From positions 1 to 44,435 of the forward strand of contig JAKQLJ010000049.1 in the NCBI GenBank assembly GCA_029567195.1: DNA of 44,435 nucleotides, written 5' to 3'. Shown one piece after another: positions 2,156 through 22,579 of this stretch. The position numbers were made by a program, and so were the translations under genes. This stretch comes from a bacterium (lineage in GTDB: Bacteria > Patescibacteriota > Minisyncoccia > Moranbacterales > UBA2206). How positions within the stretch are numbered: position 1 is the first letter of the stretch; every line of letters begins with the position of its first letter. The notes beneath the pieces were generated by a model, which did not search any database, had not been told where the DNA came from, and saw nothing but the letters and a program-made list of their open reading frames with translations.

Positions 2156-3217
2156 TTATTTCACAAAACTTTTTACTCTTTGCAAAGCCCTGTATATCCT
2201 ATATTTTCCTGAATTTATTATAATATCGTAACTTCCCGGAAAATTTTTAGGCCTGGTGTTTGGCGAAAATCCCAACTTAAATCTGGTAATTCCCTTCCAT
2301 GTGTTTTGTGCTATGTGTTCCGAGCTATGTGATTTTATTCCTCCCAAATCATATTTCTCGCAACCCAATTTTTTAGCATCCTTGATTTGCTGCCATTGAA
2401 GGAGATATGGCGCCATAACGTTTCTGTATTCATCATCTGAAGCGCCATGAAGATAGATGCAGGTTTTATCATAAAATATTACAATATTGGCCGCAATAAC
2501 TTTCCCTTCATATTCGGCGGCATAAATTTTAAGCATTTCGCCGGGAATAATCTCTATCATTTTTCGATAGTAACTTTCCGGATGCACTGTTATTTTATTA
2601 CGTTTCGCCATTACTCTCGTCAGCCGCAAAAAATCATCTATATATTTATTGTTCATTGTTCCTTGTTCGCTGACCACCAAAACCCCCTTCTTTTCTGCCA
2701 GCCTTATGTTATACCGCGTCTTCGGTTTCATTCCAGCTAAAATTTCTTCTTCTGGTTTTGTGATATCAATAATAAAAAGCTCTTTCGGCTGCATATCATG
2801 CGGCGCTTTAGAAATTTCATATTTTGTATTCTTTTTTATCTCTTCCAGCATTTCTTTCGTTTCCGGATCAATTCGAATCCAGCCAGCCGAATTTTCCTTC
2901 GCTAAATCAATCAAACTCTCATACTGTTCATTGTTCATTGATCCTTGTTTATTGATTATTGGTCCTCGTGGGATATAAAAATATTTACCCACTATTGGAA
3001 GCTTATGTTCAATGACATTGGCCCAAAATTCAATTTCCCCTTCTCCCTTATAAGGAGAAGGTGCCCGAAGGGCGGATGAGGTAGAAAAAACATTATACGT
3101 CTTTCTCCCCACGCTTTCCTGAAACTTTCGCCATTCTTCGGATTGCAAAAAATCCCTTTCTAAGAATTTGGGACTTGAGGCTTTTTTTTGAAAATTATTT
3201 TTATTTATATCAGACAT
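2156..3217 (-). CDS. FemA/FemB/FemX-like peptidoglycan interpeptide-bridge aminoacyltransferase, with repeat-derived in-frame segments
   Basis: LQSEEWRKFQESVGRKTY..., EHKLPIVGKYFYIPRGPI, GMKPKTRYNIRLAEKKGV, YLHGASDDEYRNVMAPYLLQWQQIKDAKKLGCEKYDLGGI, WKGITRFKLGFSP. Confidence 0.9.
   Translation of the reverse strand: MSDINKNNFQKKASSPKFLERDFLQSEEWRKFQESVGRKTYNVFSTSSALRAPSPYKGEGEIEFWANVIEHKLPIVGKYFYIPRGPIINKQGSMNNEQYESLIDLAKENSAGWIRIDPETKEMLEEIKKNTKYEISKAPHDMQPKELFIIDITKPEEEILAGMKPKTRYNIRLAEKKGVLVVSEQGTMNNKYIDDFLRLTRVMAKRNKITVHPESYYRKMIEIIPGEMLKIYAAEYEGKVIAANIVIFYDKTCIYLHGASDDEYRNVMAPYLLQWQQIKDAKKLGCEKYDLGGIKSHSSEHIAQNTWKGITRFKLGFSPNTRPKNFPGSYDIIINSGKYRIYRALQRVKSFVK
2301..2335 (+). repeat. Heptad array, GTGNTAY-type, inside the FemAB-like CDS
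   Basis: GTGTTTT GTGCTAT GTGTTCC GAGCTAT GTGATTT. Confidence 0.8.
2647..2674 (+). repeat. Heptad array, YAYTGNT-type, inside the FemAB-like CDS
   Basis: TATTGTT CATTGTT CCTTGTT CGCTGAC. Confidence 0.8.
2922..2963 (+). repeat. Heptad array, YAYTGNT-type, inside the FemAB-like CDS
   Basis: TACTGTT CATTGTT CATTGAT CCTTGTT TATTGAT TATTGGT. Confidence 0.85.
3037..3083. repeat. REP-like palindromic element inside the FemAB-like CDS
   Basis: CCTTCTCC-cTTATAA-GGAGAAGG inverted repeat, then GCCCGAAGGGC hairpin and GGATGAGGTAG; translated as STSSALRAPSPYKGEGE. Confidence 0.75.
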
Positions 3218-3327
3218 TACTTATAAACTGAAATATTATTTATTATTTATCATCCCGGAATAATAATCATTCTAAGAAAATTTTATTTTTTTGTTCGTCA
3301 TCTTGAGGATGGCTTATTTCCATATTC

Positions 3328-3373
3328 GTCATCCAGAGGACTCCGACGTTACGTCGGAGGACGAAGGATCTAT
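3328..3373 (+). repeat. Palindromic element, left copy, flanking the GIY-YIG gene
   Basis: GTCATCCAGAGGA-[CTCCGACGT T ACGTCGGAG]-GACGAAGGATCTATT; perfect 9-bp stem at 3341-3359. Confidence 0.8.
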
Positions 3374-3390
3374 TTTGTTATTCAGCAGAC

Positions 3391-3672
3391 TTACAAACTA
3401 TTATATAAATCCAGCCATTCGGGATTTTCTTTTTCGATTAAATCTATTTTCTTTTTTCTAGACCAGCCCTTTAGTTCTTTTTCTCTTTTTATGGCAGTTG
3501 GCATATCTTCAATCAATTCATAATAAACCAGTTTATCTATATTATATTTTTTAGTAAAGCCTTCTATCAATTTTTCCTTGTGTTCCCAGACTCTTCTTCT
3601 AATATTGCTAGTCACGCCAATATATAAAGTCTTGGAATAATTTGTCATAATATAAATGCAAGGTTGCTTCAT
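3391..3672 (-). CDS. GIY-YIG nuclease family protein
   Basis: CIYIMTNYSKTLYIGVTSNIRRRVWEHKEKL...KYNIDKLVYYE...AIKREKELKGWSRKKKIDLIEKENPEW: single-domain GIY-YIG pattern. Confidence 0.95.
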   Translation of the reverse strand: MKQPCIYIMTNYSKTLYIGVTSNIRRRVWEHKEKLIEGFTKKYNIDKLVYYELIEDMPTAIKREKELKGWSRKKKIDLIEKENPEWLDLYNSL

Positions 3673-3699
3673 TGTTTTTGAGCTGAAAATAGCTCTCGG

Positions 3700-3739
3700 T
3701 AGATTCTTCGCATCGACTTTGGTCGATGCTCTGAATGAC
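3700..3739 (-). repeat. Palindromic element, right copy, inverted relative to the left copy
   Basis: Reverse complement reads GTCATTCAGA-[GCATCGAC CAAA GTCGATGC]-GAAGAATCTA; perfect 8-bp stem at 3710-3729. Confidence 0.8.
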
Positions 3740-3772
3740 GATCTGAATGACGAGAGGTAAGATTATTATTTT

Positions 3773-4357
3773 TTACTTCTTTCCCAAATTCTTGAGAGCC
3801 ATTTTTATTCTCGCCCCTAAATCTTTAATATCAGCCGGAACCGATTTTAGAGCGTCTCTTGCTTCCGTCACCGAATAGCCCATGGTCATCAACGCCTCCA
3901 CCGCATCAGAATCAGAGATCACTTCCTCTTTTTCTCCGCTTGTCATATCCGCCACTTTGTTTCTCAGCTCCAAAATGACCCTTTCGGCCGTTTTTTTGCC
4001 AATACCGGAAACACGCGTCAAAATTGACGGATCTTCGTTCAAAATGGCCGTTCTTATGGTTTTCGGAGCGGCAATGGACAAAATCCCCATGCCTGCCTTC
4101 GGGCCGATGCCGGAAATGGAAATTAGAAGCTCAAACATATCAAGTTCTTCCGGTGATAAAAAACCATACAGCGCCAGAGTGTCTTCTCGGACATAAGTGT
4201 GAATAAAAAACTCAACCGGTTCTTTACTGCTGCTCAGTCCTGCCACTTTGCCAAAAGTATAAACGCTTAAATATACCTTGTATCCGATGTTGTTAACGTC
4301 CAATACGGCATAGTTATCCCTTAAATATTCAATTTTGCCTCTTAGTTTAGCGATCAT
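3773..4357 (-). CDS. ruvA: Holliday junction branch migration protein RuvA
   Basis: MIAKLRGKIEYLRDNYAVLDVNNIGYKVYLS..., VREDTLALYGF, LLISISGIGPKAGMGILS, RVSGIGKKTAERVILELRNK. Confidence 0.97.
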   Translation of the reverse strand: MIAKLRGKIEYLRDNYAVLDVNNIGYKVYLSVYTFGKVAGLSSSKEPVEFFIHTYVREDTLALYGFLSPEELDMFELLISISGIGPKAGMGILSIAAPKTIRTAILNEDPSILTRVSGIGKKTAERVILELRNKVADMTSGEKEEVISDSDAVEALMTMGYSVTEARDALKSVPADIKDLGARIKMALKNLGKK

Positions 4358-4533
4358 ATTGATAATTCTATTCTAGCATTTTACTTTTTTTATTAAAAGC
4401 GTCAGCGACTTGCCAAAAAACGCAAGGCATGATAAAAGTAATAAGTATTAAATCACACTAACCAACGCGAATTTAACACTAATAATCACAAATAAATTTG
4501 AGAAAAATTAGTGTCAATTAGCGATTTATTCCC

Positions 4534-4803
4534 ATGCCAATCAAAAAATCCGCTAAGAAGTACATGCGCGTAACCGGACGCAAAACGGAAAAAAATCGAA
4601 AAATCCGAGGATCTTTTCGAAGCGCTATAAAAATGACCAAGGAAGCTGTGGCCAAGGGGGACGCAAAAGCCGCCCAGGAATCTTTGAAAAAAACCATGAA
4701 AGCGCTCGACAAAGCCGCCCAAAAGAAAGTCATCCATAAGAATACGGCAGCCAGGACAAAATCAAGATTGAACAAAACAGTGAAAGCTTTGGTAAAAAAA
4801 TAA
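4534..4803 (+). CDS. rpsT: 30S ribosomal protein S20
   Basis: MPIKKSAKKYMRVTGRKTEKNRKIRGSFRSAIK...KKTMKALDKAAQKKVIHKNTAARTKSRLNKTVK. Confidence 0.95.
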   Translation: MPIKKSAKKYMRVTGRKTEKNRKIRGSFRSAIKMTKEAVAKGDAKAAQESLKKTMKALDKAAQKKVIHKNTAARTKSRLNKTVKALVKK

Positions 4804-4820
4804 TTTTGTACCGAAAAACA

Positions 4821-4852
4821 AAAAAGCGCCCCGTTTTTCAGGAGCGCTTTTA
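4821..4852. terminator. Hairpin terminator downstream of rpsT (convergent with holA)
   Basis: AAAAAGCGC-CCCGTTTTTCAGGA-GCGCTTTT. Confidence 0.75.
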
Positions 4853-4868
4853 TATTTGCAAAATTTGT

Positions 4869-5834
4869 TTATATTTCTGCGATAAATTTATCCAGCGCTA
4901 ATTTTATATCTATCTTTCCGGTTTTTATCTCGGTGTCCAAATCTCCCAGTTTTTTATAAATATTTGTCAAATCAACTAAGCTAAAATTTCTGAGTTGCCC
5001 GAAACTTTTTTTGATAACAAAAGGATGAAGCTTGGTGATTTTTCCTATTTCATATTCATTCATATTTCTTTCCTTTAAATCGGCAACTTTTAACAAATTC
5101 CTGAACTGATAAAGAAACATTGAAAAAATATAAAAGGGATCTTCGCCCTGTTCCATATGCCGATAAAGAAGACTAAGCGCTTCTTTTTTATTTTTGTTAC
5201 CCAACGCATCAATGGTAAGAAAAATATTACTGCTGATATTAGCTTTTACCAGCATCTCCACGTCTTTTTCTCCTATCATCCGTCCGCTGGAAAAATTGAC
5301 TAATTTTTCCAATTCCCCGTCGAGAACATAAATATCATTGCCGGCAAAAGCCAGAAGAAGAGAAAGTGCGCCTTTGGAAATGCTCCCGTTTTTATTTTTC
5401 TCTTTTATTCTTTTAACAATCCATTGTTCAAGTTTCAGCCCGTTAAGTTTTTCAAATTCCTGTTTTTTGCTGTTTTCTGCTAGAAATTTAAACAGAACAT
5501 TGCTTTTTTTGGGCGCATTTTCTTCCCTAAAAACCAGCACCAGATCTGAATTAGCGATCACGCTTTCTTTATTTCTTTTTAAAAATTCAAGCAATTCTTT
5601 TTGATTTTCAGCTGCGCCGTTGGAAATGATATTTTCCACTATCACCAATCTTTTCGGCGCTAGCAAATTGGGCGTTCCTAAAACATTTATAATTTTTGAC
5701 GCCTGTGTTTTTTCTTCACAGTCAAAAGAAGACAAGCCCGAACCGGACTTGTCACTAGCTAAATATTTTTGTTTTATTTCTTTCAGTTTTTGGCGAGAAC
5801 GAAAAGTGTCCTCGCCGTATAAAAATATAACCAT
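4869..5834 (-). CDS. holA: DNA polymerase III subunit delta
   Basis: MVIFLYGEDTFRSRQKLKEIKQKY..., LFREEN, LLAFAGNDIYVLDGELEKL, FLTIDALGNKNKKEALSLLYRHMEQGEDPFYIFSMFLYQFRNLL. Confidence 0.93.
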   Translation of the reverse strand: MVIFLYGEDTFRSRQKLKEIKQKYLASDKSGSGLSSFDCEEKTQASKIINVLGTPNLLAPKRLVIVENIISNGAAENQKELLEFLKRNKESVIANSDLVLVFREENAPKKSNVLFKFLAENSKKQEFEKLNGLKLEQWIVKRIKEKNKNGSISKGALSLLLAFAGNDIYVLDGELEKLVNFSSGRMIGEKDVEMLVKANISSNIFLTIDALGNKNKKEALSLLYRHMEQGEDPFYIFSMFLYQFRNLLKVADLKERNMNEYEIGKITKLHPFVIKKSFGQLRNFSLVDLTNIYKKLGDLDTEIKTGKIDIKLALDKFIAEI

Positions 5835-5852
5835 CGGTCACATTTACGCTAA

Positions 5853-5908
5853 GTGTTATGTGCTATGTGTTACGTGTTATGTGATACGTGCTATGTGATA
5901 TGATTTAT
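5853..5908 (+). repeat. Heptad array, GTGNTAY-type, between holA and the DUF3048 gene
   Basis: GTGTTAT GTGCTAT GTGTTAC GTGTTAT GTGATAC GTGCTAT GTGATAT GATTTAT; reaches the DUF3048 stop codon (5905-5907). Confidence 0.9.
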
Positions 5909-6999
5909 GCCGCCGGCGTCCATCTGAGAGTTTGTCCCGGTTCTAAGACTTCCACCCAGATTTGTCCGGGAACAAATTTCACTTCTTGCCCGTTTTCATC
6001 AAGCATCATCAGTTTAGATTCTATTCTTGATTTATCCTTTTTCCAGGTACCCTTCATTTCCTTGCCATTCATATAATAGTAAGCTTCCCCGGAATCGGAA
6101 GTGTCATACCACGGATCTCCCAGTTGGACATTATTATATTGCCCTTCAATTTGTTCAGAGACCGCCATCAGAACCACCACATTTTTAGGAGCATGCCTCT
6201 TGCCATTATTCCTATCGGTGTCCGCCACATTGCCCCAAGTTCGAAGGTAAGTATTAGACTCTTTGTCATAATCGTATTCCGCTGCAAAAGGACCAGGAAA
6301 AGCTACCCGAAGATGACCGCCATTTCCCCTCTCTCCCGTTGCTGGCTCAGCCTGGTGGGGATAACCAGAAAATTTTCCTTCCATTCTATACCCAAAAGCC
6401 TTCGCTCCTTCGATGATTTTGGAAAATTTAGCATAGCCACTGTCAACTCCCCGAGACATTCCCTCTTTTCGGTAACAATAATTGACGGCTGATTTTCCGG
6501 CATCACCATTACAATTCATATTATCAATAATGCCGCTGTTTAATCTGTCTTTAAATTCAGGAATATCCGATCTTCCCCAGTGGACAAAAATGGCATCCAT
6601 TCCTTTAGCCAGATGAACAAAATCGTGACGAGCGCTTCTCATTGATCCGACATCATCCGGATCGCCGCAGACATAAACACCCATAAGCCTGGTAATGGTG
6701 GCGGTAATTACCGGCATTTCAATAACCATATCAGCATCGGAAAAACCGGCCGCTGGTCTTGCCGGAACATCAGCCGGCTGCATAACCGCAATTGGACGCC
6801 TGTTCCAATTGGAACAAGCAAGACCGGAAATAGGACTGACATCTCCAGTGTTAGCCGGCTCGGAACTTTCTTTGGCCGGATCTTTGTTAACATTTATCTG
6901 TTTGCCTGTTTTCGTTTCGGATCGGGAAAAATAATATATTCCCCCTCCCGCGATTATTGCCACAAGAAAAGCAATAAAAATTTTTTTTGAAACACTCAT
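5905..6999 (-). CDS. DUF3048 domain-containing (YerB-like) membrane-anchored protein
   Basis: N-terminal TM, RPIAVMQPADVPARPAAGFSDADMVIEMPV..TRLMGVY...VGSMRSARHDFVHLAKGMDAIFVHWGRSD...GQIWVEVLEPGQTLRWTP. Confidence 0.85.
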   Translation of the reverse strand: MSVSKKIFIAFLVAIIAGGGIYYFSRSETKTGKQINVNKDPAKESSEPANTGDVSPISGLACSNWNRRPIAVMQPADVPARPAAGFSDADMVIEMPVITATITRLMGVYVCGDPDDVGSMRSARHDFVHLAKGMDAIFVHWGRSDIPEFKDRLNSGIIDNMNCNGDAGKSAVNYCYRKEGMSRGVDSGYAKFSKIIEGAKAFGYRMEGKFSGYPHQAEPATGERGNGGHLRVAFPGPFAAEYDYDKESNTYLRTWGNVADTDRNNGKRHAPKNVVVLMAVSEQIEGQYNNVQLGDPWYDTSDSGEAYYYMNGKEMKGTWKKDKSRIESKLMMLDENGQEVKFVPGQIWVEVLEPGQTLRWTPAA

Positions 7000-7035
7000 G
7001 AGTTAGAAATTATTAATTATAAACTTTATTAAAAA

Positions 7036-7893
7036 TTATTTTTGACATTTTTCACAATAAAAAACACTTCTTCCTCCTAATTTTATTCGCTTCACTATTG
7101 TAGCACATTTTGGACATTTTTGTCTCTCCCTTCTATACACTTTTAAAGCTTTTTGAAAACTCCCCGGCGCGCCGGAAGTGTCACGATAATCGCTATCCGA
7201 TGTTCCTCGAAGTTTTATGGCCTTTTTTAGCACCCTAAAAACCGATCTATATATTTTTTTCTTTTCCCCTTCACCCAGATCGCCAACTGTTTTTACGGGA
7301 TCAATTCCGGCGTCATACAAAATTTCACTGCGATAGATATTGCCTATTCCGGCCATAAGATTTTGATCCATAAGGACAATCCCGATCGGCGCTTTTTTTC
7401 TTTTTCCCAAAATATCATCAAATTTCTTAAAAGTAAACTTCTTATCAAAAACATCCGTTCCGACAATTTTTATATCCTTATAATTTTTTATATTATTGGT
7501 TTCCAAAAGAACAATTTTGGCAAATTTGCGCATATCAGAAAATTCCAGAGTTTTATTTTTTCCCAACGTCCAAATGTGATGGATATATTGATTTACTTTG
7601 TCGGAAAAATATTTTTGAGATTTGAGATTTGAGATTTGAGATTTTACCAACAAGTGTCCTGTCATTTTGAGATGAATATAAATCGTTTTTCCGCCCGAGA
7701 GATCAATAAACATATTTTTTCCAATCCGATGAGCACCTAAAATTTTTCTTCCTGTTATTTCACTCTTAAACTTTTTTATAGTTGTATTTTTAACAGCGCT
7801 TGGCGTATCAGACCAAAAATCGGTGATGACGTCACCTTTTATTTTTTTGTTCAAATCATCAGTAATAGTTTGGACTTCTGGCAATTCCGGCAT
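7036..7893 (-). CDS. mutM: Formamidopyrimidine-DNA glycosylase
   Basis: MPELPEVQTITDDLNKKI, HLKMTGHL, DMRKFAKI, MAGIGNIYRSEILYDAGI, C-terminal CPKCATIVKRIKLGGRSVFYCEKCQK zinc finger. Confidence 0.97.
   Translation of the reverse strand: MPELPEVQTITDDLNKKIKGDVITDFWSDTPSAVKNTTIKKFKSEITGRKILGAHRIGKNMFIDLSGGKTIYIHLKMTGHLLVKSQISNLKSQKYFSDKVNQYIHHIWTLGKNKTLEFSDMRKFAKIVLLETNNIKNYKDIKIVGTDVFDKKFTFKKFDDILGKRKKAPIGIVLMDQNLMAGIGNIYRSEILYDAGIDPVKTVGDLGEGEKKKIYRSVFRVLKKAIKLRGTSDSDYRDTSGAPGSFQKALKVYRRERQKCPKCATIVKRIKLGGRSVFYCEKCQK
7617..7644 (+). repeat. Four perfect GAGATTT heptads inside mutM
   Basis: GAGATTT x4, translated on the minus strand as KSQISNLKSQ. Confidence 0.9.
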
Positions 7894-7897
7894 ATAT

Positions 7898-7937
7898 TAG
7901 CTTGCTAGTTAATTAGCTTTTTAGCTAATTAGTGCGC
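7898..7937 (+). repeat. Octad array at the 3' end of the four-helix-bundle gene
   Basis: TAGCTTGC TAGTTAAT TAGCTTTT TAGCTAAT TAGTGCGC (TAG every 8 bp); includes the gene's stop codon (7925-7927). Confidence 0.85.
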
Positions 7938-8284
7938 ATACTACAAATAATTTTATTCAACATTTTCATAATTTCCAGTAACAACGAATCGACAGTCGAA
8001 AAGTCAAGATGTCCTGTCTTCTTCAATCTTTTTGCTATTTCTATTTGAGTTTCAAGCTCAGCACCAGAAGCATAGGCAATACGCAAGAATTGCAAAAAAT
8101 CCTTTCTTCTTCCTCGATACCTGCCTTCAGCGATATTGGAAGGAATAGAAATGGCCGATCTCCGAATCTGGGACGTTAATCCAAAAACCTCTTCTCGCGG
8201 AAACTCATCAGTTAAATTGTATATTTCTGTAACTAAATCCATCGACTTCTGCCAGACAACCAACTCCTTGTAAGAATGTAACAT
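7925..8284 (-). CDS. Four-helix bundle protein (S23 / 23S rRNA intervening-sequence protein family)
   Basis: YKELVVWQKSMDLVTEIYNLTDEFPREEVFGLTSQIRRSAISIPSNIAEGRYRGRRKDFLQFLRIAYASGAELETQIEIAKRL. Confidence 0.95.
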   Translation of the reverse strand: MLHSYKELVVWQKSMDLVTEIYNLTDEFPREEVFGLTSQIRRSAISIPSNIAEGRYRGRRKDFLQFLRIAYASGAELETQIEIAKRLKKTGHLDFSTVDSLLLEIMKMLNKIICSMRTN

Positions 8285-8291
8285 TTATATT

Positions 8292-8339
8292 AAAGCTAAC
8301 CAATTAAAAAGCTAGTAAGCTAGTTAACTAACTAACTAG
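8292..8339 (-). repeat. Octad array, inverted relative to the 7898 array, upstream of the four-helix-bundle gene
   Basis: Reverse complement: CTAGTTAG TTAGTTAA CTAGCTTA CTAGCTTT TTAATTGG TTAGCTTT; includes the polA stop codon (8336-8338). Confidence 0.85.
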
Positions 8340-11035: not shown

Positions 11036-11084
11036 ACCACCAGTATACTAAGCGGAAAAATTTATGGCAATAAAGATGTCTTTT

Positions 11085-11429
11085 TTAATAACCGCGAAAA
11101 AATCTTATTCCCCAGAAAAACAAAATGCAGAGAAAAAGACCGAGAAGAGAAAAACAAAAAATGCGCCAAGCCACGGAAATTCTACTTTCTTCTCCTCCCG
11201 CAGTCGCATAAAGAATGGCGAATATAAAAAATCCGAAAATAGAAAGTACGCCAATCCCTCCAAAAATCAGTTCAAGAAAACCAAAGAATAAGTGCGAGGT
11301 AACGGAAGGTGAGAGAATTTCTTTTTTCTTCGGCATGTCTCTAAATTGAGCAAAAGCCACCTGAAAATTAAGAAAAAATAAATAAAGCAGAATTAGCGTT
11401 TTCTTCATATTCGTTTCTTTTAACTGCAT
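11085..11429 (-). CDS. Small secreted/membrane protein, signal peptide plus two TM segments (VirB2/T4SS-pilin-like topology)
   Basis: KKTLILLYLFFLNFQVAFAQ signal, then two hydrophobic segments around ATAGGEESRISVAWR. Confidence 0.5.
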   Translation of the reverse strand: MQLKETNMKKTLILLYLFFLNFQVAFAQFRDMPKKKEILSPSVTSHLFFGFLELIFGGIGVLSIFGFFIFAILYATAGGEESRISVAWRIFCFSLLGLFLCILFFWGIRFFRGY

Positions 11430-11435
11430 TAAACT

Positions 11436-11461
11436 AAAGCAGGCGTTTTACGGCCCGCTTT
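11436..11461 (-). terminator. Possible terminator downstream of the cyclophilin gene
   Basis: Minus-strand AAAGCGGGC-CGTAAAAC-GCCTGCTTT (one G-U pair); weak T tract. Confidence 0.4.
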
Positions 11462-11478
11462 AAAAATTTAAAAAAATA

Positions 11479-12742: not shown

Positions 12743-12770
12743 TTTAGCTTTTAGACTTGAAAATTTGACA
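12743..12770 (+). repeat. Heptad array, TTNARMY-type
   Basis: TTTAGCT TTTAGAC TTGAAAA TTTGACA. Confidence 0.6.
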
Positions 12771-12822: not shown

Positions 12823-12843
12823 TTCAACCTTTAGCTTTGAAAT
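12823..12843 (+). repeat. Heptad array, TTNARMY-type, ending at the DHH-family start codon
   Basis: TTCAACC TTTAGCT TTGAAAT, then ATG at 12844. Confidence 0.65.
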
Positions 12844-13977
12844 ATGGCTCTTGAACCCCAGGAACAATTCAAGAAATTTTTAGATAATTCCAAGGAAATT
12901 CTTGTCCTTATCCCAGAAAATCCCAGCAGCGACGCTGTTGGCAGCGCCTGGGCTCTTTACTTTTTCCTGGAAAAAAGAGGGCATTTTCCCACCATCGCTT
13001 TTTCCAACAACCTCTCTCCAAGGTTTGGCTTTTTGACCAAACCAGACCGAATGATTGCAGAAATTTCTGGCGCCCGAGATTTTGTTCTTTCCTTCGACAT
13101 AGCCAGAAACAAAATAAAAGAAATACGTCACGAAGAAAAGGACGGGAGATTCAATATTTATCTTACTCCGGAAAAAGGTTCCATAGATCCACGAGATTTT
13201 TCTTTTATTCTGGCTAAATTTAAATATGACCTTATTATAGTTTTAGATTCCCCTGATCTTGAAAGCTTGGGAAAACTTTATAACTCCAATACGGATCTCT
13301 TTTTCGAAGTGCCGGTGATAAATATCGATCACAGGAGCAATAATGATAATTTCGGACAGATTAATCTGGTAGATGTCACTGCTTCTTCTTGCTCGGAAAT
13401 CGTGGAAAGAAACCTGAAAAATATTGATGAAAATCTGATCGATAAAAATATCGCCACCTGCCTTTTGGCCGGCATTATCGGCGCCACCGAAAGCTTTCAG
13501 AAAAAAAACACCACTCCGCGCGCGCTCTCTATTTCTGCCGCCCTTATGGACAAAGGCGCCGACCAGCAGGAAATTGTTCGCTGGCTCTACAAAACCCATT
13601 CCTTAAGCCTTTTGAAACTCTGGGGAAGATCTATGGCCAAACTTAACTGGAATACCGATCTCAAATTGGCCTGGACAAAATTAACCGTTGAGGATTTTGT
13701 GCAAAGCCGAGCAAAAATAACCGACATCGGATTAATCTTAGAAAAACTTCAGGAAAATTATTCGGAAGGCAAAATATTTATGACTACCTACAATGACACG
13801 CCTATGTCTTCTATGGTGGTTATACGAGCTGTCGACCGAGAAATTTTGAATAATATTTATATTAATTTCGGCGGAGAAATAAAAAAAGACGTATTGGAGA
13901 TAAAAACAGAAGAGAAAGATTTGGAAAAAGTAGGCAAAAGTATGGAAGAAAAACTGAAATCAGTTCTTGCTGTTTAA
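12844..13977 (+). CDS. DHH-superfamily phosphoesterase-like protein with altered motifs
   Basis: ILVLIPENPSSDAVGSAWALYFFLEKRGH (motif I-like), IIVLDSPDLES, VINIDHRSNNDNFG (DHR where DHH is usual), TCLLAGIIGATESFQ. Confidence 0.8.
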   Translation: MALEPQEQFKKFLDNSKEILVLIPENPSSDAVGSAWALYFFLEKRGHFPTIAFSNNLSPRFGFLTKPDRMIAEISGARDFVLSFDIARNKIKEIRHEEKDGRFNIYLTPEKGSIDPRDFSFILAKFKYDLIIVLDSPDLESLGKLYNSNTDLFFEVPVINIDHRSNNDNFGQINLVDVTASSCSEIVERNLKNIDENLIDKNIATCLLAGIIGATESFQKKNTTPRALSISAALMDKGADQQEIVRWLYKTHSLSLLKLWGRSMAKLNWNTDLKLAWTKLTVEDFVQSRAKITDIGLILEKLQENYSEGKIFMTTYNDTPMSSMVVIRAVDREILNNIYINFGGEIKKDVLEIKTEEKDLEKVGKSMEEKLKSVLAV

Positions 13978-14002
13978 CAAAACAATTCATATTTACCACG
14001 TC

Positions 14003-14026
14003 AAAGGCTGTGAAGCCTTTTTTTAT
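14003..14026 (+). terminator. Rho-independent terminator
   Basis: AAAGGCT-GTGA-AGCCTTT followed by TTTTA. Confidence 0.75.
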
Positions 14027-14150
14027 TTCCTTCTTTTTGTGTTAAAATATCATTGACCGACGGAAAAATTTATTTGATATGAATTATCAAAAACAAAATT
14101 AATCCGGATAAAAATAAAGGCAACTATAAATTTTAGTTTGAGCAATAGAC

Positions 14151-17100
14151 ATGATAAAGATAACCAAAAAACAACCCATACAAAAAGACACGGAAAAAGA
14201 GCTAGAGACCAGAAAAATAATTTCCAAGTTCCGCCATCAGGAGGAAGAGGAACAGGCTTCTGCCCTGGCATCTTCTCTGGGTTTTTCTTATATGGACACC
14301 AATCTTGTCCCGATAAGCGAGGACAGCATGAGACTTCTGACCGAAGAAGAGGCCAGAAAAAACAATTTGGTGGTTATCCAAAAAATTTCCAAAAATGTTA
14401 GCGTTATTTCCACCGATCCCACCAAAAAAGAAACGGCCGAATTCATAAAACTTCTTTCTCAGGAAAAAGGCTGGCAGATAAAGCCCTTCGTTGTTTCCCG
14501 ATCTAATATGCTTCTGGTTCTGGAACGATATAAAAAAATTGTTTTTTCGGAAATTCTTGACCAGATGAGTCTTCATTTGAGCGGTGAGGAACTCAAAAAA
14601 TTTGAAGAGGAAATGAAAGACCTCCTGACCCTGAAAGCCAGAATAAACGAACTGCCAGTAACTCAGGTATTAAGCATCATTATGGCCGGAGCGACAAAAC
14701 TGGGCGCTTCTGACGTCCATCTTGAACCCCAGGAAAAAGAATTTCGCTTGCGTTATCGAATCGACGGAGTGTTACAGGACGTGGCTTTTCTGCCTCTTAA
14801 TGTTTATAAAAACATCATCACCCGCATAAAAATAATGAGTGGGATGAAAATAAACCTAAGAGACATCGCTCAAGACGGAACTTTTCAGGTAACTTTGGGC
14901 GAGAAAAGGATTGACACCCGCGTTTCCGTTATTCCGGGAAATTTCGGCGAATCAGCCGTTATTCGTATTCTTGATCCGGAATCAATTCGGGTAACTTTGG
15001 ATAAATTGGGAATGACCGGTCTAGCTTATGAAATGATCCAGAAACAAACCGATGCTCCAAACGGCATGATTCTCAACACCGGACCAACCGGATCCGGAAA
15101 AACCACCACCCTTTATGCCATAATCAATAAACTCAACAGTCCGGACAAAAAAATCATTACCATTGAAGACCCGATCGAATATGAAGTAACTGGAATTTCC
15201 CAGACCCAGGTGGAAAAATCAAGGGGCTACACTTTCGATACCGGCCTTCGGGCAATCGTCCGCCAGGATCCAGACATCATTCTGGTCGGAGAAATCCGAG
15301 ATGACGAAACAGCCGATATTGCCGTTAATTCCGCTCTTACCGGACACTTGGTGCTTTCCTCGCTTCACACCAACAATGCCATCGGTGCCATTCCCCGCCT
15401 TATTGAACTTGGAGTAAAACCCTCCCTTATTTCCCCTTCCGTAAATGCCACTATCGGGCAAAGATTGGTGCGCCGCCTTTGCGACTGCAAAGAATCTTAT
15501 GTTCCTGCCAAAGAATCCATCGAATCACTCAAAAAAATTCTCTCCATTATTTCTCCTAAAGCCAAAGTGGAAATTCCAAAAAATATTGAAAAACTTTACC
15601 GCGCCAAAGGCTGCCCGAAATGCAACGGTTTGGGATATAAGGGACGAATAGGAATTTTTGAAGTTTTTGTTATTAACGAAGAAATTGAAAAATTAATCCT
15701 GAACTTGGCCGGAGAAACAGAATTAACTGTGGCGGCTTTGGAAGCAGGAATGATAACCATGCTTCAGGACGGCATATTAAAAGCTCTCTCTGGAATCACG
15801 TCCATTGATGAAGTGCGCCGAGTCACCGGACAAGGAGAATTTTTGGAAGCTATTTATGAAAAATTAATGGCTCAGACTTTGGGCCGATCGGTGGTAGTAA
15901 ACAATGATCACTATCAAAAAGCTAAAGCCACTATCAAAAATTTCAAAAAATTCCAGGAAACTATTGCCAAATCAAAAAGCACCAATATCAATGAAATATT
16001 ATTCGCCGCAGCGGCCATTCTTGGCACCGGAGACATTCATATCGAACCGGGAGAAAAGGATGTCAAAATAAGATTTAGAATTGATGGCATTCTTCAAGAC
16101 GTGGTTTCTGTTCCGCTCAATGAATACCCGAATTTATTGGGAAAAATAAAACTTCTCTCGGGAGTAAAGACAGAAGTGCGACAAGGAGTGATAGACAGCC
16201 GTTTTTCTATCAAATTCGACGAAGACATAAAAGATGTCAAAGAAAGATCGGTTGATGTCCGTGTTTCCATAATCTTAGGCGGTTATGGGGAAACAGTAGT
16301 AATGCGGCTTCTTTTCAAATCAACGCTGGAATACGATCTGACAAAACTGGGCATCAGAGAAACAAATTTAAAAAAGATTATGCATGAAATTTCTAAACCT
16401 AACGGCATAATCCTCAACACCGGACCGACCGGCAGCGGAAAAACCACTACCCTTTATTCCGTTCTTCAACACTTAAACAAACCAGAAGTAAAAATTATTA
16501 CCGTGGAAGATCCTATTGAATATCAGATGGAAGGAATCTTGCAAACTCCGGTCAATGAAAAAGAAGGTTATACTTTTGCTAATGCCCTCCGCCAGCTCCT
16601 TCGTCAAAATCCAGACATTATGATGATTGGAGAAATTCGAGATAATGAAACTGCTCAAGTGGCTGTTCAAGCCGCCCTTACCGGACACCTGGTGCTTTCT
16701 ACCATTCACACCAACAACGCTGCCGGTGCCGTTTCCCGTATGGTCAATATGGGCGTGGCTCCGCAGGATGTAGCCACCTCTGTCAATGCTTTTATCGCCC
16801 AAAGGCTGGTCAGAAGACTGTGCGACTGCAAGAAAAAAATTAAAATCAGTCCGGAAGAAGACAAAAAAATAAGCGCAGCCATAAAAACCATTTCTCCCAA
16901 GGCTGGCGTTACTATTCCCAAAACCGATTATATTTACAAACCAAATGGATGTGAGAAATGCAACGGCCTTGGTTACAAGGGTCAAATGACAGTAAGTGAA
17001 ATTTTTGAAATTTCCCGTGATATTCAGGAAATGATTACTAGCGGCGCTATCACTAACGACCTTCAAGACAAGGCGGTAGAAAACGGAATGCTCACTATGT

Positions 17101-17174
17101 CTCAGGACGGAGTTATCAGAGTCCTGGAAGGCGACACCACGCTTGATGAAGTGGAACGCGTGACGGATTTATAA
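14151..17174 (+). CDS. Tandem PilB/GspE-type ATPase, two complete T2SE ATPase modules in one polypeptide
   Basis: Two copies each of GPTGSGKTTTLY, (I/V)EDPIEY, (V/I)GEIRD, LHTNNA/IHTNNA, RLVRRLCDC...C.KCNGLGYKG; one N-terminal T2SSE_N-like domain. Confidence 0.95.
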   Translation: MIKITKKQPIQKDTEKELETRKIISKFRHQEEEEQASALASSLGFSYMDTNLVPISEDSMRLLTEEEARKNNLVVIQKISKNVSVISTDPTKKETAEFIKLLSQEKGWQIKPFVVSRSNMLLVLERYKKIVFSEILDQMSLHLSGEELKKFEEEMKDLLTLKARINELPVTQVLSIIMAGATKLGASDVHLEPQEKEFRLRYRIDGVLQDVAFLPLNVYKNIITRIKIMSGMKINLRDIAQDGTFQVTLGEKRIDTRVSVIPGNFGESAVIRILDPESIRVTLDKLGMTGLAYEMIQKQTDAPNGMILNTGPTGSGKTTTLYAIINKLNSPDKKIITIEDPIEYEVTGISQTQVEKSRGYTFDTGLRAIVRQDPDIILVGEIRDDETADIAVNSALTGHLVLSSLHTNNAIGAIPRLIELGVKPSLISPSVNATIGQRLVRRLCDCKESYVPAKESIESLKKILSIISPKAKVEIPKNIEKLYRAKGCPKCNGLGYKGRIGIFEVFVINEEIEKLILNLAGETELTVAALEAGMITMLQDGILKALSGITSIDEVRRVTGQGEFLEAIYEKLMAQTLGRSVVVNNDHYQKAKATIKNFKKFQETIAKSKSTNINEILFAAAAILGTGDIHIEPGEKDVKIRFRIDGILQDVVSVPLNEYPNLLGKIKLLSGVKTEVRQGVIDSRFSIKFDEDIKDVKERSVDVRVSIILGGYGETVVMRLLFKSTLEYDLTKLGIRETNLKKIMHEISKPNGIILNTGPTGSGKTTTLYSVLQHLNKPEVKIITVEDPIEYQMEGILQTPVNEKEGYTFANALRQLLRQNPDIMMIGEIRDNETAQVAVQAALTGHLVLSTIHTNNAAGAVSRMVNMGVAPQDVATSVNAFIAQRLVRRLCDCKKKIKISPEEDKKISAAIKTISPKAGVTIPKTDYIYKPNGCEKCNGLGYKGQMTVSEIFEISRDIQEMITSGAITNDLQDKAVENGMLTMSQDGVIRVLEGDTTLDEVERVTDL

Positions 17175-17186
17175 AAAAGTCTAAAT

Positions 17187-17221
17187 TATAAGTTTGAAAT
17201 TTAAACTTTAGCCTTTAACCT
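17187..17221 (+). repeat. Heptad array, TTNARMY-type, upstream of the M23 gene
   Basis: TATAAGT TTGAAAT TTAAACT TTAGCCT TTAACCT. Confidence 0.7.
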
Positions 17222-17233
17222 TAAGAGAATAAT

Positions 17234-17719
17234 ATGGAAACCAAGAACAAATATTATTTACCTATTAAATTATCTCCGGATGTTACCGTGACTTATGAAT
17301 CTTCTCCCGCTCATAAACAAGAATGGCTCCGGGATGCTGTGGATTTTTTAACCCCGATCGGGACAGAAGTTCTCTCAGCGCTCGACGGAGTTGTTTCATT
17401 TGTAAAAGACGATTCGGATATCGGAGGAGATACTGAGGATTTTGATCAATATGGAAATTTTATCGAAATCAGACACGCCAATGATGAATTTTCCATCTAT
17501 GAACATCTGCAAAAAGGCGGATCGCTTGTGAAAGTTGGAGATAGCGTCAAGGCTGGACAAATCATCGGCTATTCGGGAAAGACCGGATGGATAGGCGGCC
17601 TCGGCCCGCATATTCATTTCGACGTACATAAATATTGGGGAGAGGGATTGAATGATTATAACAGCCTGAAAATAAATTGGACCACTCCGCCGCCAAACAA
17701 GGAAAATTTATATTTGTAA
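17234..17719 (+). CDS. M23 family metallopeptidase (LytM-like)
   Basis: DAVDFLTPIGTEVLSALDGVVSFV...YGNFIEIRHANDEFSIYEHLQKGGSLVKVGDSVKAGQIIGYSGKTGWIGGLGPHIHFDVH. Confidence 0.9.
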   Translation: METKNKYYLPIKLSPDVTVTYESSPAHKQEWLRDAVDFLTPIGTEVLSALDGVVSFVKDDSDIGGDTEDFDQYGNFIEIRHANDEFSIYEHLQKGGSLVKVGDSVKAGQIIGYSGKTGWIGGLGPHIHFDVHKYWGEGLNDYNSLKINWTTPPPNKENLYL

Positions 17720-17731
17720 AACGTTTACTTC

Positions 17732-17764
17732 AAATAAAAAAATAGGACGAACAAATGTCCGTCC
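17732..17764 (-). terminator. Minus-strand rho-independent terminator
   Basis: Minus strand: GGACGGAC-ATTT-GTTCGTCC (one G-U pair) followed by TATTTTTTTATTT. Confidence 0.8.
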
Positions 17765-18031
17765 CGAGGCGAGAGTATTTCCGCATCCCGCCTATTGTTT
17801 ACTGCTCACTGATTATTGATCATTGTCTTTGCACTAATATGCAGGCAAGATCCGGAACTAGGAGCCCCGGGAAAGAAACAACATCGAGGAACGATCGAGC
17901 CTAGACCCAATACGCCCATATCTTGAAAAAAGTTTCCATAATTGAGGACAAAAGATAGAAGCCCCCAATTTGCCTGCAACTTACTGCTAGCCATTGCGTA
18001 TATCCTATAATTTTCGGAATTTACGCTATGA
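17765..18031 (-). ncRNA. Putative structured ncRNA of unassigned family (6S-like overall layout is one possibility)
   Basis: Minus-strand promoter TTGACA-17 bp-TAAGAT (18066 to 18038), long-range helix GCAGTAAGTTGCAGGCAA / TTGCCTGCATATTAGTGC (17987-17970 with 17848-17831; 15 of 18 positions pair), hairpin at 17768-17792, and terminator at 17732-17764. Confidence 0.6.
17793..17827 (+). repeat. Heptad array, YAYTGNT-type, within the ncRNA region
   Basis: TATTGTT TACTGCT CACTGAT TATTGAT CATTGTC. Confidence 0.85.
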
Positions 18032-18037
18032 CAGGAT

Positions 18038-18066
18038 ATCTTAGCATAACTTCCAATTTTTGTCAA
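18038..18066 (-). promoter_or_regulatory. Sigma70-type promoter for the putative ncRNA
   Basis: Minus strand TTGACA - 17 nt - TAAGAT. Confidence 0.6.
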
Positions 18067-18113
18067 ACAGTGATAAAATTAAGCATGAAGGGAAGAAAAG
18101 AACTAGCCCAAGA

Positions 18114-19190
18114 ATGATAATCTTAACAAAAGACCCCATGATAACGGAAAGCAGCCAAAATATAAAAAACGACTCGACAGTAAAAGGAAACCTTCGTGAT
18201 GAAGAGGATTTTGTTTTGGATAATACTCTTCGCCCTCAAAATTTCCTGGAATATATCGGTCAGGAAAAAGTGAAGAAAAATCTTGATATTCAGATTCAGG
18301 CAGCCAAAAAAAGAAAGGAACCGATTGAACACGTTCTTCTTTATGGTCCGGCAGGTTTGGGAAAAACCACTCTAGCCAATATTATTGCCCGCGAAATGAA
18401 TGTCAACATAAAAACCACTTCCGGTCCGGCTATTGAAAAAGTGGGTGATTTCGGTTCGATTCTCACTAACCTCTCCGACGGAGACATTCTTTTTATCGAT
18501 GAAATTCACCGACTGAACAAAACTATCGAAGAAATACTTTATCCCGCCATGGAAGATTTCAAGCTCGATATTATCATCGGAAAAGGCCCTAGCGCCCGGA
18601 CTATTCAACTGGATCTCCCCAAATTTACCTTGATTGGCGCCACAACAAAACTTGGCTCTCTGTCCAATCCTCTCCGAAACCGTTTTGGAGCGGTGCATCG
18701 TTTGGAATTTTACACCAACAAAGAAATTGAAAAAATTATCAAGAGATCAACCAGAATTTTAGACGTAACAGCAGATCAAACCGGCATCGAAAAAATTGCC
18801 AGTTGCGCCCGCCAGACTCCCCGAGTAGCCAACAGACTTTTGAAACGCGTCCGGGATTATAGCGAGATTAAAGACCATAAAATAATAGATGGCATTGTCG
18901 CCAGAGAAGCTTTGGATATGATTGATGTTGATCATATGGGACTGGAACCGGCCGATAAACAAATTTTGAAAACTATAATTGAAAAATTCGGCGGAGGCCC
19001 CGTGGGATTAAACACCATTGCTGCCGCTATTTCCGAGGAAGTAAAAACCATAGAGGACGTATACGAACCTTATCTTATTCAAATTGGTTTTTTAGCCAGA
19101 ACGCCAAGAGGAAGAATGGCCACTGAAAATGCTTACAACCATTTGGGAATAACTCCGCCAAATAGCGGACAGAACAATAAATTATTATAA
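18114..19190 (+). CDS. ruvB: Holliday junction helicase RuvB (ORF track opens at TTG 18060; ATG 18114 or 18138 is more plausible)
   Basis: [57 protein letters not shown]...[24 protein letters not shown]...[18 protein letters not shown]. Confidence 0.97.
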
Positions 19191-19197
19191 AAACAAA

Positions 19198-19425
19198 ATG
19201 CTATTTTTAATCTTAGCTCTATACGCCATACTAGTCATCCTTTTCATTATCACTGCTTTTTTCATCGTCTATCATTTGTCTAAATACTCCCTCAATTCTT
19301 CTCTTAATAAAATAATGCTTCCGATTTTTATTATTCTTTCCGCTCTCCTTCTTCTTTCCAATGTTCTTCTTTTTTTCTCCATCAACTGGAACAGCCTCCT
19401 AAGAAATCTGCCTGTTTCTTTTTAA
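19198..19425 (+). CDS. Small membrane protein, two TM segments
   Basis: 75-aa ORF with two hydrophobic segments, 8 bp after ruvB and before the PH-domain gene. Confidence 0.5.
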   Translation: MLFLILALYAILVILFIITAFFIVYHLSKYSLNSSLNKIMLPIFIILSALLLLSNVLLFFSINWNSLLRNLPVSF

Positions 19426-19441
19426 ATATTAAAATAATGAG

Positions 19442-20032
19442 ATGCCTGATTTTACACATTATCACTTTTTAGGCCAAAAACCCAACGAAAAAATTCTTTT
19501 GGTTGTTCACCGCCATTGGTTTAACATTCTGAGCCAATTTTTTGTGGTGTTTTTGATGCTGTTTCTTTTTATCGGCACTTATCTTTACCTTCCTCTTGTT
19601 TTTTCTTCGCTTTCCAACCCGATAAACGCCGACTTGTTTTATTTTTTAGAAAATCTTTTCTTTATGTTTGTCTGGATTATTTTTTTTCTTATCTGGGTGG
19701 ACTATTATTTTGATGTTTGGATCGTTACCGATCAACGAATCGTCAATATAGAACAAAAGGGTCTTTTTTCCAGGGTAGTGAGTGAACTGGAGCTGGAGAA
19801 CATTCAGGATATTACCACTGATGTCCACGGAGTTATCCCCACCTTCCTGAATTACGGTAATCTTTTCGTTCAAACGGCCGCTGAAAAAGAAAGATTCATC
19901 TTCCGCAATATTCCCGATCCTTACGGAGTAAAGGATTTAGTAATGAATTTGCAAAAAACTCGTGAGCACAAAGAGGAAGAACAATTTGGCGAGCTTATCA
20001 GAAAAAAAGTCCATCATAATGAAATAGGATAG
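19442..20032 (+). CDS. Bacterial PH domain (YdbS/bPH2-like) membrane protein
   Basis: Two TM segments then VWIVTDQRIVNIEQKGLFSRVVSELELENIQDITTDVHGVIPTFLNYGNLFVQTA. Confidence 0.85.
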   Translation: MPDFTHYHFLGQKPNEKILLVVHRHWFNILSQFFVVFLMLFLFIGTYLYLPLVFSSLSNPINADLFYFLENLFFMFVWIIFFLIWVDYYFDVWIVTDQRIVNIEQKGLFSRVVSELELENIQDITTDVHGVIPTFLNYGNLFVQTAAEKERFIFRNIPDPYGVKDLVMNLQKTREHKEEEQFGELIRKKVHHNEIG

Positions 20033-20057
20033 GCAAAAAAACTAAAAAATAAAGGAG

Positions 20058-21539
20058 GTGAAAAATAAAAACAAAGGAGAATTTTATTTTTTATGCGCGC
20101 TAGTGGTTATAGCTAGCGTTTTTATTTTCTTTAAAATCTCCCGGGCGGAAACAAATTTAAAGTTTTCCAAAATCCAATATGGCGGAGGAGAAGGAAGGCC
20201 AGATGAAGATTTTATTACCATTATTAACCGCTTTAGTGAACCGATAAATCTTAAGGGCTACCGCCTGGTAAAAAGATCCGCCAAAGCTACGCATGACACT
20301 ACTATAAAATCATGGACTGCTGATACTTTGGTTTCCCCTGATAGTTTTTACACCTGGGCCAATAGTAAAAATGGTTTTGCCGAAAGCATCAAGGCCGACG
20401 TTTCCACCACTCAGACCATAACCGAAGGTAACGGCATTGCCCTGAGACTGGGCAAAGAAGACGAAGGAACTATAATCGATAGCGTCAATTGGAAAGAAGG
20501 AGGAGTAGAAGAAAAAATTCCAGAATCCGATAAATCTGCGGGAATCAATATAAAAACGGACAAGGAAATTTATCCTAACATTTATGCCAATTTCAAAGTC
20601 GAATATTCCGGCGCCACTTCGGCCACAAAATATACTTGGAATTTTGGCGATGGTCACAAAAGCTATAAACAAAAAACCCGCCATAAATATAACAACGAGG
20701 GAAAATACCAAGCGAGCGTTACAATCAGGGGCGACAAAAGCGCTATCAAAAATTTCGAGCTGGAAGTCAAAGATTTTAACGCGCCTAAAGTAAAAATAAC
20801 CGCCATTGTCCCCAATCCCAAAGGCAAGGATTCCGGCGAATACATTTTAATCCAGAATAAATCCAAGAAGAAGATAAATCTTCTGAACTGGAGCATCGCC
20901 ACCGGCTGGAAAAATTTATACAACCATCCGATCAAAAAAGATTTTGTGATAAAAAAAGGAGAGACAAAAAAACTTACTAAAAAAATTTCCCTCTTTACCC
21001 TAAACAACACTAAAACCAAACTGGAACTTCGCACTCCTTCGGGAGAAGCGGTTCAAAAAATTAAATATAACCGGAAGAAAGATAAAATTGAAGAAGACGA
21101 AATTTTTGAAATATCCGGAAAAAAATGGGAGTGGAATAAACCGCCAACGGATACAAAGAAAGAGCCGGAAAATAAAAAAATTAATAATGCCGCGGAAAAT
21201 CCTATCTCCTCTTCAGAAAAACTTAAAGCTGAAACAGAAAATAATTCAGAGGAAAATAAAAAAAATATGATCATTACTCCTCAATCGGAAATAGATGCCG
21301 CTATCGGAAAATTCACAAAAAATTCAAGATGGGAAGGTAAAAAATCGGCCCAACTGCAACTAATCGCCTACGGAACAAATATAAGCATGCCAACTAATTT
21401 GCCCAACAACCAGGGAATGGTTCTGGGAATCTATGCCGAAAAAAAATTTGAAAAAGAAAAACATTGGACCAAAAAACTATCTGGTGACTGGTGGAAAAAA
21501 ATCAATTTTGGATTGAATTGGTGTTTGAATAAAATATAA
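20058..21539 (+). CDS. Secreted protein with lamin-tail (LTD), PKD and second LTD-like domains
   Basis: LKFSKIQYGGGEGRPDEDFITIINRFSEPINLKGYRLV (LTD); TKYTWNFGDGHKSYKQKTRHKYNNEGKYQASVTI (PKD); KITAIVPNPKGKDSGEYILIQNKSKKKINLLNWSI (LTD). Confidence 0.8.
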   Translation: MKNKNKGEFYFLCALVVIASVFIFFKISRAETNLKFSKIQYGGGEGRPDEDFITIINRFSEPINLKGYRLVKRSAKATHDTTIKSWTADTLVSPDSFYTWANSKNGFAESIKADVSTTQTITEGNGIALRLGKEDEGTIIDSVNWKEGGVEEKIPESDKSAGINIKTDKEIYPNIYANFKVEYSGATSATKYTWNFGDGHKSYKQKTRHKYNNEGKYQASVTIRGDKSAIKNFELEVKDFNAPKVKITAIVPNPKGKDSGEYILIQNKSKKKINLLNWSIATGWKNLYNHPIKKDFVIKKGETKKLTKKISLFTLNNTKTKLELRTPSGEAVQKIKYNRKKDKIEEDEIFEISGKKWEWNKPPTDTKKEPENKKINNAAENPISSSEKLKAETENNSEENKKNMIITPQSEIDAAIGKFTKNSRWEGKKSAQLQLIAYGTNISMPTNLPNNQGMVLGIYAEKKFEKEKHWTKKLSGDWWKKINFGLNWCLNKI

Positions 21540-21776
21540 AAAATAGAAAAATTCCAGAAACTGAAATCAAGGATTAATATAATTTTAAAAAAATTTATTT
21601 TTATGTGACACAATTTATAATTATTGTTCCTTATCATTGCAGTTATTTCCCTTGAAAATCACCATATAAAATGTTAGTCTTTAAGTGATGAATTTATTTA
21701 AAGCATTAAAACTGATAAAGCTAACTTTTAGCTCAACAAGCAAAACGATTTAACAGTTTTGACCTTCAAGACCCAT

Positions 21777-22487
21777 ATGTCTGGACACTCACATTTTGCC
21801 GGAATAAAACACCGCAAAGGAATAAATGACGCCAAAAGAGCGCACATTTTTACCAAACTTTCCAAGCCCATTACTATTGCCGCTCAAGAAGGCGGAGGAA
21901 ATCCTGATACCAATTTCAAACTAAGAATGGCCATAGATAAAGCGCGCCAGTTTAATATGCCGAAAGATAATATCGATCGGGCGATAAAGCGGGGAACCGG
22001 AGAAATGAAAGGAGATCAGATTGTGGAGATAATTTACGAAGCCAAGGGGCCGGGTAATGTCTTGATGCTTATAAAATGCACTACCGATAACCGAAACCGG
22101 ACTGTTTCTGAATTAAAAACAGTTTTCAATAAAATAGGCGGAAAGATGGGAGAAGCCGGCAGTTCCATGTGGAATTTTGATCAGGTGGGCAGCATCATAA
22201 CCGAAATTGACAATGATATAGAAGAAATGGAGCTTTTAGCTATTGATGCCGGAGCTAAAGATACAAAAATAGAAGAAGAAAAATTAGTTATTTTTACCGA
22301 TCCCAAAGATCTTCAAAAAGTAAGAAATAACTTGAATCAAAAGGGCATAAAAATTATGGAAGCTGGCTTGGTTTTTATCCCCAAAAACACCGTAGAAATA
22401 GACAAAGAAACCCGCCTTGATTATGAAAGATTGCTTGAAGCGCTTGATGATCAGGATGACGTGGATGATATATATGATAATCTATAA
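21777..22487 (+). CDS. yebC: YebC/PmpR family transcriptional regulator
   Basis: MSGHSHFAGIKHRKGINDAKRAHIFTKLSKPITIAAQEGGGNPDTNFKLRMAIDKARQFNMPKDNIDRAIKRGTGE. ATG 21777 preferred over TTG 21759. Confidence 0.96.
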   Translation: MSGHSHFAGIKHRKGINDAKRAHIFTKLSKPITIAAQEGGGNPDTNFKLRMAIDKARQFNMPKDNIDRAIKRGTGEMKGDQIVEIIYEAKGPGNVLMLIKCTTDNRNRTVSELKTVFNKIGGKMGEAGSSMWNFDQVGSIITEIDNDIEEMELLAIDAGAKDTKIEEEKLVIFTDPKDLQKVRNNLNQKGIKIMEAGLVFIPKNTVEIDKETRLDYERLLEALDDQDDVDDIYDNL

Positions 22488-22493
22488 CAAAAA

Positions 22494-22521
22494 GCAGTGA
22501 ACAATGAGCAAAGAGCAATAA
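22494..22521 (-). repeat. Heptad array, YAYTGNT-type, minus orientation
   Basis: Plus strand GCAGTGA ACAATGA GCAAAGA GCAATAA; reverse complement TTATTGC TCTTTGC TCATTGT TCACTGC. Confidence 0.75.
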
Positions 22522-22544
22522 AGACAGAGAGGATTATTGTTTTT

Positions 22545-22579
22545 TGTTGATCATTGATCATTGATTATTAATCATTGAT
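22545..22579 (+). repeat. Heptad array, YAYTGNT-type, overlapping the ruvC start codon
   Basis: TGTTGAT CATTGAT CATTGAT TATTAAT CATTGAT; the ruvC ATG is at 22578-22580. Confidence 0.85.

Follow-up and report, generated by a model that had tools for sequence, protein, structure and literature searches.

Tandem arrays with a constant seven-base step and changing unit sequence in spacers and protein loops of Patescibacteria

The STRR sequences of heterocystous cyanobacteria are dispersed tandem heptamers with a few fixed consensuses, and they belong to one group of organisms. Rickettsia palindromic elements are conserved palindromic sequences of ~100–150 bp that are found in spacers and, as small in-frame DNA inserts, where conserved proteins tolerate them. 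According to Mrazek et al. (2007, as cited in PMC4679880), heptanucleotides are the commonest class of long simple sequence repeat (LSSR) in most repeat-rich genomes, and a slippage mechanism involving a 7-nt contact of the polymerase has been put forward for them, again as that source relays it. TAACTGA direct repeats have been described in Beggiatoaceae, Cyanobacteria, and Bacteroidetes (MacGregor 2015, PMC4679880), and the P6b loop of the Nostoc tRNA-Leu intron carries degenerate heptanucleotide repeats, with two unit classes at the one site (Costa et al. 2002, as cited in PMC3488679). Heptamer repeats as such are therefore already known, and so, from Borgs, are arrays that arise independently within genes. 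Full-text searches of a limited literature collection found no paper on heptamer or heptanucleotide repeats in the candidate phyla radiation.

The window, i.e., the whole 44,435-nt stretch that was analysed, is the complete contig C52 of a draft genome of 829 kb in 54 contigs (87% complete). Its genes include femX, ruvA, holA, fpg, polA, tsaE, a pilB-like ATPase, ruvB, yebC, and ruvC, and no Rfam elements were found in it. Judging by its small size and its gene content, the genome is probably that of a patescibacterium. Periodicity was scored by measuring self-match runs at each lag, with a cut-off of ≥11 for the window and ≥13 for a 442-kb sample of the genome; the expectation given for a tract is the number of positions of the same length that reached its count of lag-7 matches in the dinucleotide-shuffled window. 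Six lag-7 segments reached the cut-off in the window, whereas 100 shuffles averaged 0.17 and never gave more than one, and the remaining lags gave 0–2 segments except for 14 and 21, both multiples of seven. The first-pass annotation had listed 11 tracts as strictly 7-bp periodic, a description that suits five of them clearly; three are borderline, two are at chance level, and one (2301–2335) is weak.

The tract of the GAGATTT type, at 7617–7644, is perfect (21/21 lag-7 matches, expected 0.00), as is the full array at 7614–7644 on the minus strand (31/31 nt at period 7), which lies in a loop of fpg/mutM near residue 84 and has AAATCTC as its unit on the coding strand. Between fpg and a gene at 7925–8284, positions 7896–7932 hold a repeat with a period of 16 nt (ATTAGCTTGCTAGCTA); that gene adjoins polA and encodes a stand-alone protein of the 23S rRNA-intervening-sequence type (PF05635). 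The GTGNTAY type stands at 5853–5908 (37/49, expected 0.00), where an array of what we call the ACRTAAC family (5850–5902; score 21, 7.9 copies) fills the spacer between a DUF3048 gene and holA, and the same family is present in three further stretches of this genome (L022, L023, and L090). Its other proposed member, 2301–2335 in the 3′ part of femX, is weak at lag 7 (16/28, expected 61) and better described by the period of 14 that TRF assigns; it looks like a decayed relative of the holA-side array, with 88% identity to 5853–5885 over 33 nt. Only one tract of the TTNARMY type is periodic, 17187–17221 (20/28, expected 0.00), in a degenerate array (17176–17222, score 12.5) in the spacer between pilB and an M23 peptidase gene, and the other two, 12743–12770 (13/21, expected 64) and 12823–12843 (8/14, expected 883), are not above chance.

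Two tracts of the YAYTGNT type are clear, 2922–2963 (26/35) and 22545–22579 (22/28), each with an expectation of 0.00. The other three, 2647–2674 (15/21), 17793–17827 (19/28), and 22494–22521 (15/21, opposite strand), are borderline when taken alone, with expected values of 1.4 to 4.4, and fit an AACAATG family that is found elsewhere in the genome. Both femX arrays of this family are on the minus strand: 2645–2668 (score 12) covers residues ~184–191 (EQGTMNNK), and 2925–2961 (score 15) covers residues ~86–98 (IINKQGSMNNEQ). The tract at 17793–17827, with its TTG strand on the plus strand, lies downstream of the M23 peptidase gene, whereas that at 22494–22521, on the plus strand, is the inverted partner of a minus-strand array at 22534–22579 (score 16.5) that runs into the ruvC start codon, abutting and overlapping the ATG at 22578–22580. 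In this and other stretches (L082 16958–17038, L085 9699–9772, and window 22494–22579), neighbouring arrays were inverted more often than direct, by 10 pairs to 3, which are small numbers; mutual inversion suggests that hairpins could form.

The excess at lag 7 extends well beyond the window. In the 442-kb sample, 29 segments scored ≥13, compared with 0–1 in shuffles and with 0–4 at every other lag between 4 and 13, and this genome-wide scan was a check that had been proposed beforehand. Related genomes gave the same result: the excess recurs in 20-kb stretches of 20 relatives and in stretches from across the phylum, at densities ranging from 0–2 arrays per 100 kb (G003 and G030) up to 28 (G184). 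Three copies of the degenerate unit AAATTNC were present in 45 of 287 phylum genomes, and three copies of the reversed pattern in only one of the 287. AACAAWG in three copies is rarer in the phylum (3/287 genomes), and it was found in at least 116 stretches from many phyla, including Bacteroidota, Cyanobacteria, Chloroflexi, Planctomycetes, and CPR, among others; in 150 kb of E. coli K-12, no such arrays were detected. The phenomenon is thus phylum-wide, with many units at a constant 7-base step, and a common generating process behind one fixed period and several unit sequences, as the first reading had suggested, gains support from the scans of both the genome and its relatives. Chance, composition, or faulty assembly is hardly credible as the source. 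The two chance-level tracts and the weak one speak for it, and the scarcity of perfect arrays longer than 34 nt, an upper limit that may partly come from short-read assembly, could be counted with them; yet arrays are also present in single-contig genomes, and arrays inside the genes of conserved enzymes do not interrupt the reading frame. Chance was rejected for the entire class on the strength of the shuffles, the other lags, the reversed pattern, and E. coli, and it was retained as the explanation for the tracts at 12743 and 12823.

Orthologous sites repeat the period and the position of an array, but not its sequence. Most relatives have 7-bp arrays in the loop of fpg around residue 84, with a different unit in nearly every one, and some relatives have no array there at all. 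Two loops of FemX follow the same pattern: orthologs of the 2645–2668 site have other arrays or none, and the loop of 2925–2961 has other units in L307, L308, L321, L323, and L325. One loop of glutamate dehydrogenase (GDH) contains arrays with different units in all three sampled members of one family, and upstream of ruvC, arrays of other units are present in 6 of 28 relatives and absent from the rest. Comparing orthologous loci for presence or absence had been suggested at the outset, and at all of these sites the arrays either differ in unit or are missing. Enzyme names were checked against Pfam for fpg and femX, and against solved structures for GDH, GluRS, and Fpg; the others were read from sequence.

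Array turnover may not always lengthen the gene. The GluRS loop of the window's genome holds an array but equals in length the loops of two relatives (L354 and L355) that have none, indicating that turnover in place or replacement occurs besides addition; however, fourfold sites are saturated between these genomes, so an older array that decayed in the other two may also be the explanation. An array in a MiaB gene (G035) is identical in two congeners of 84% and 81% nucleotide identity, and there the flanks, too, show local conservation, so that the case agrees with selection and with homogenisation alike.

Noncoding DNA has about eight times the array density of coding DNA (0.38/kb vs. 0.05/kb), bearing in mind that gene calls for their placement came from our own codon model and are approximate. 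Nevertheless, 76 of 241 arrays, about one-third, lie within called genes, and many of these fall in familiar enzymes, namely fpg, femX, gltX, glutamate dehydrogenase, and miaB-, uppS-, argS-, and pcrA-like proteins. Relative to the closest solved enzymes, the array region of GDH is an insert of eight residues, and the GluRS array falls within residues 58–83, a stretch that cannot be aligned to them; in-frame insertion at tolerant protein sites is seen, by comparison with relatives and solved enzymes, in the fpg, femX, and GDH loops. Seven and three are coprime, and consequently a unit devoid of stop words can be read through in all frames, whereas one that contains a stop word presents it in frame once per 21 nt. 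Sense-strand stop words are found in 27 of 78 coding units, as against 63% per strand in spacers. In units that have one, the copy that falls in frame is changed: in both femX arrays of the window an in-frame CAA TGA has been altered to CAA GGA, the same change being found in a gene at L012 19701–19732. In one genus, concatenated heptamer arrays with several different units, together with a terminator-like hairpin, make up nearly all of the spacers, and such composites recur at several loci (L226 7834–8235; G172:C1 50.1–50.5 kb and 65.4–65.8 kb; ~40 places in G064).

Positions relative to genes, together with the turnover of units, bear on the idea that a DNA- or RNA-binding protein binds the arrays by recognising motifs phased at 7 bp, for instance in translation control as was proposed for the TAACTGA repeats. 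We consider this very improbable. A few arrays do abut start codons, as at ruvC in the window, similar heptamers exist in several phyla, and some conservation of phase persists at lag 35 (a match fraction of 0.58 vs. ~0.3). However, the distribution of the 72 arrays in co-directional spacers is flat (a start lies within 10 nt of 19 arrays, and a stop within 10 nt of 27), and no start-codon bias was found among them. A 7-bp recognition system is made less likely still by the differences in unit between orthologous sites, by the frequent lack of an array there, and by the many arrays within protein loops. The suggestion of a common 7-bp-phased recognition in the first-pass annotation is accordingly not supported: orthologous units differ, start codons are not preferred, and about a third of the arrays are in coding loops.

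The internal structure of the arrays fits a local origin. Within arrays, the match fraction declines with distance: it is 0.77 at lag 7, a value inflated by segment selection, then 0.70, 0.66, and 0.61, and finally 0.58 at lag 35, with ~0.3 off phase; unit similarity that decays along the array is expected from local duplication followed by mutation. The earlier statement that these are not slippage microsatellites is therefore not supported, because perfect arrays are common and units become less alike with distance. Perfect arrays are not evenly distributed in size: 27 are of 30–34 nt, 3 of 28–29 nt, 20 of 22–27 nt, and one is longer, and the peak at 30–34 nt (4.3 to 4.9 units) is common to coding and noncoding DNA. 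A peak of this kind is not what simple geometric slippage should produce, and it counts against the explanation that we favour, a recurrent and largely sequence-independent duplication by seven nucleotides, as does the GluRS loop that gained an array but no length. As to the peak, contraction above five units balanced by mutational decay below four is one possibility. A frame-driven seed to which exactly 21 bases were added was also considered as the cause of this size class, but it is insufficient, as noncoding arrays peak in the same way and the GluRS array added no length.

Arrays within one genome also resemble each other. Identical units make up 5.9% of within-genome pairs but only 0.9% of between-genome pairs, and each genome has several unit clusters and no single fixed unit. 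In one genome (G013), two loci, a spacer and a gene, have a composite of 57 nt in common at 93% identity, its phase break included. Sharing of units and this composite imply that copying between sites is needed, and that purely independent birth is insufficient. They could also be taken to mean that the arrays are mobile, i.e., that a pre-formed array of ~30–34 nt is copied from another place in the genome to sites that tolerate it, as with Rickettsia palindromic elements, the heptamer structure being a property of the element. This we regard as unlikely, though it deserves more weight than the other alternatives. The 6.5-fold higher sharing of identical units within genomes, the 57-nt composite, and the narrow size class of perfect arrays agree with it, as do arrays of the TTGGAAA type, 30–32 nt long, which G035 has at several loci, both coding and noncoding, and the use of the same FemX loops by other dispersed short inserts. 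Set against this, units differ between orthologous loops, the GluRS array came without a gain in length, and 27 of 31 array–array matches in G000 are confined to the heptamer tract and do not share ends; a terminal motif, a target duplication, and an enzyme were looked for, and none was found. As to the inserts, femX of the window carries a further dispersed in-frame one at ~3034–3079 on the minus strand (SALRAPSPYKGEGE), and FemX proteins from L304, L306, L318, L322, and L325 have ELVSGS..KQVQHD, PAQAGIQ.., and HPERSGAEAQD.. inserts at loops that also hold heptamer arrays. Inserts of the SALRAPSPYKGEGE type resemble RPE-type elements, and the tolerant sites that they mark are those of the arrays.

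We judge it somewhat better than an even bet that the arrays result from recurrent, largely sequence-independent tandem duplication and homogenisation in steps of seven nucleotides, of a slippage type, combined with copying between arrays and filtered by the reading frame. A nascent strand would slip by 7 nt, during replication or by template switching, adding units and homogenising those already there, and point mutations would later decay the array into a degenerate but still phased form such as those in the window. Arrays would survive at places that can vary in length, namely spacers and protein loops, with the proviso that in the loops the reading frame has to be preserved overall and any unit with an in-frame stop must be altered. 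Arrays of like unit would copy or exchange sequence within a genome, leaving a few unit families to dominate each one. The period, its recurrence over the phylum, different units at the same site, decay with distance, unit sharing within genomes, and frame filtering are observations; the slippage step itself, the enzyme, and the reason for a step of seven we infer from them. Rather improbable, in our estimation, is a dedicated, hitherto unrecognised DNA-synthesis activity that writes perfect arrays of ~4.5 units (30–34 nt) and of almost any sequence, sometimes replacing sequence at constant length, and that would thereby mould spacers and protein loops in Patescibacteria and several other phyla; one candidate would be a repair polymerase that works reiteratively in steps of 7 nt.

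If recurrent duplication by seven nucleotides is the right explanation, the replication or repair machinery would have, over a large part of the bacterial tree, a mutational signature in the form of a fixed and largely sequence-independent step, and the process would be reshaping both spacers and the loops of essential proteins. Since orthologous loops amount to natural replicate experiments, the old question of the dominance of heptamers among mid-length bacterial repeats becomes testable. For annotation, segments of the KNQKSKIKNQK type in such proteins would be mutational inserts, and heptamer arrays in spacers would not by themselves be evidence of a regulator.

The conceptual likeness to STRR that was noted at the start is borne out, but STRR have few, fixed consensuses within one group, whereas here units turn over at the same site across a phylum. 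Rickettsia palindromic elements are comparable in their in-frame insertion at tolerant protein sites, as in fpg, femX, and GDH, but their element sequence is conserved, and the present arrays share only a period, with no common element between sites. The property that defines heptanucleotide LSSRs, 7-nt tandem repeats in excess of both chance and other unit lengths, was found in the genome and its relatives; as far as the account in PMC4679880 goes, LSSRs are exact repeats in scattered genomes available in 2007, whereas ours are mostly degenerate and variable in unit, one-third are in genes, and independent arrays at orthologous sites are a feature of the present set. The Nostoc P6b loop, in the description cited in PMC3488679, similarly has degenerate heptamers in a tolerant loop whose length varies with repeat number, but it is a single RNA locus in which the repeats pair into a hairpin, whereas many loci, mostly protein loops and spacers, are concerned here. 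TAACTGA repeats too are many short, dispersed heptamer arrays of 2–6 copies with no link to gene function (PMC4679880), and several of the phyla that bear them also hold AACAAWG arrays; they differ in having one fixed unit and lying mostly just upstream of start codons, as opposed to many units and no such bias. Borg tandem repeats are alike in being independent in origin, recently formed, A-rich, located in both spacers and genes, and translated into peptide repeats (PMC9879509), and independent formation at orthologous genes is evident here as different units at the same loop. Their unit length varies, however, and is divisible by three within genes, whereas the unit described here is of seven bases even in genes, and its peptide repeat is therefore seven residues for every three units.
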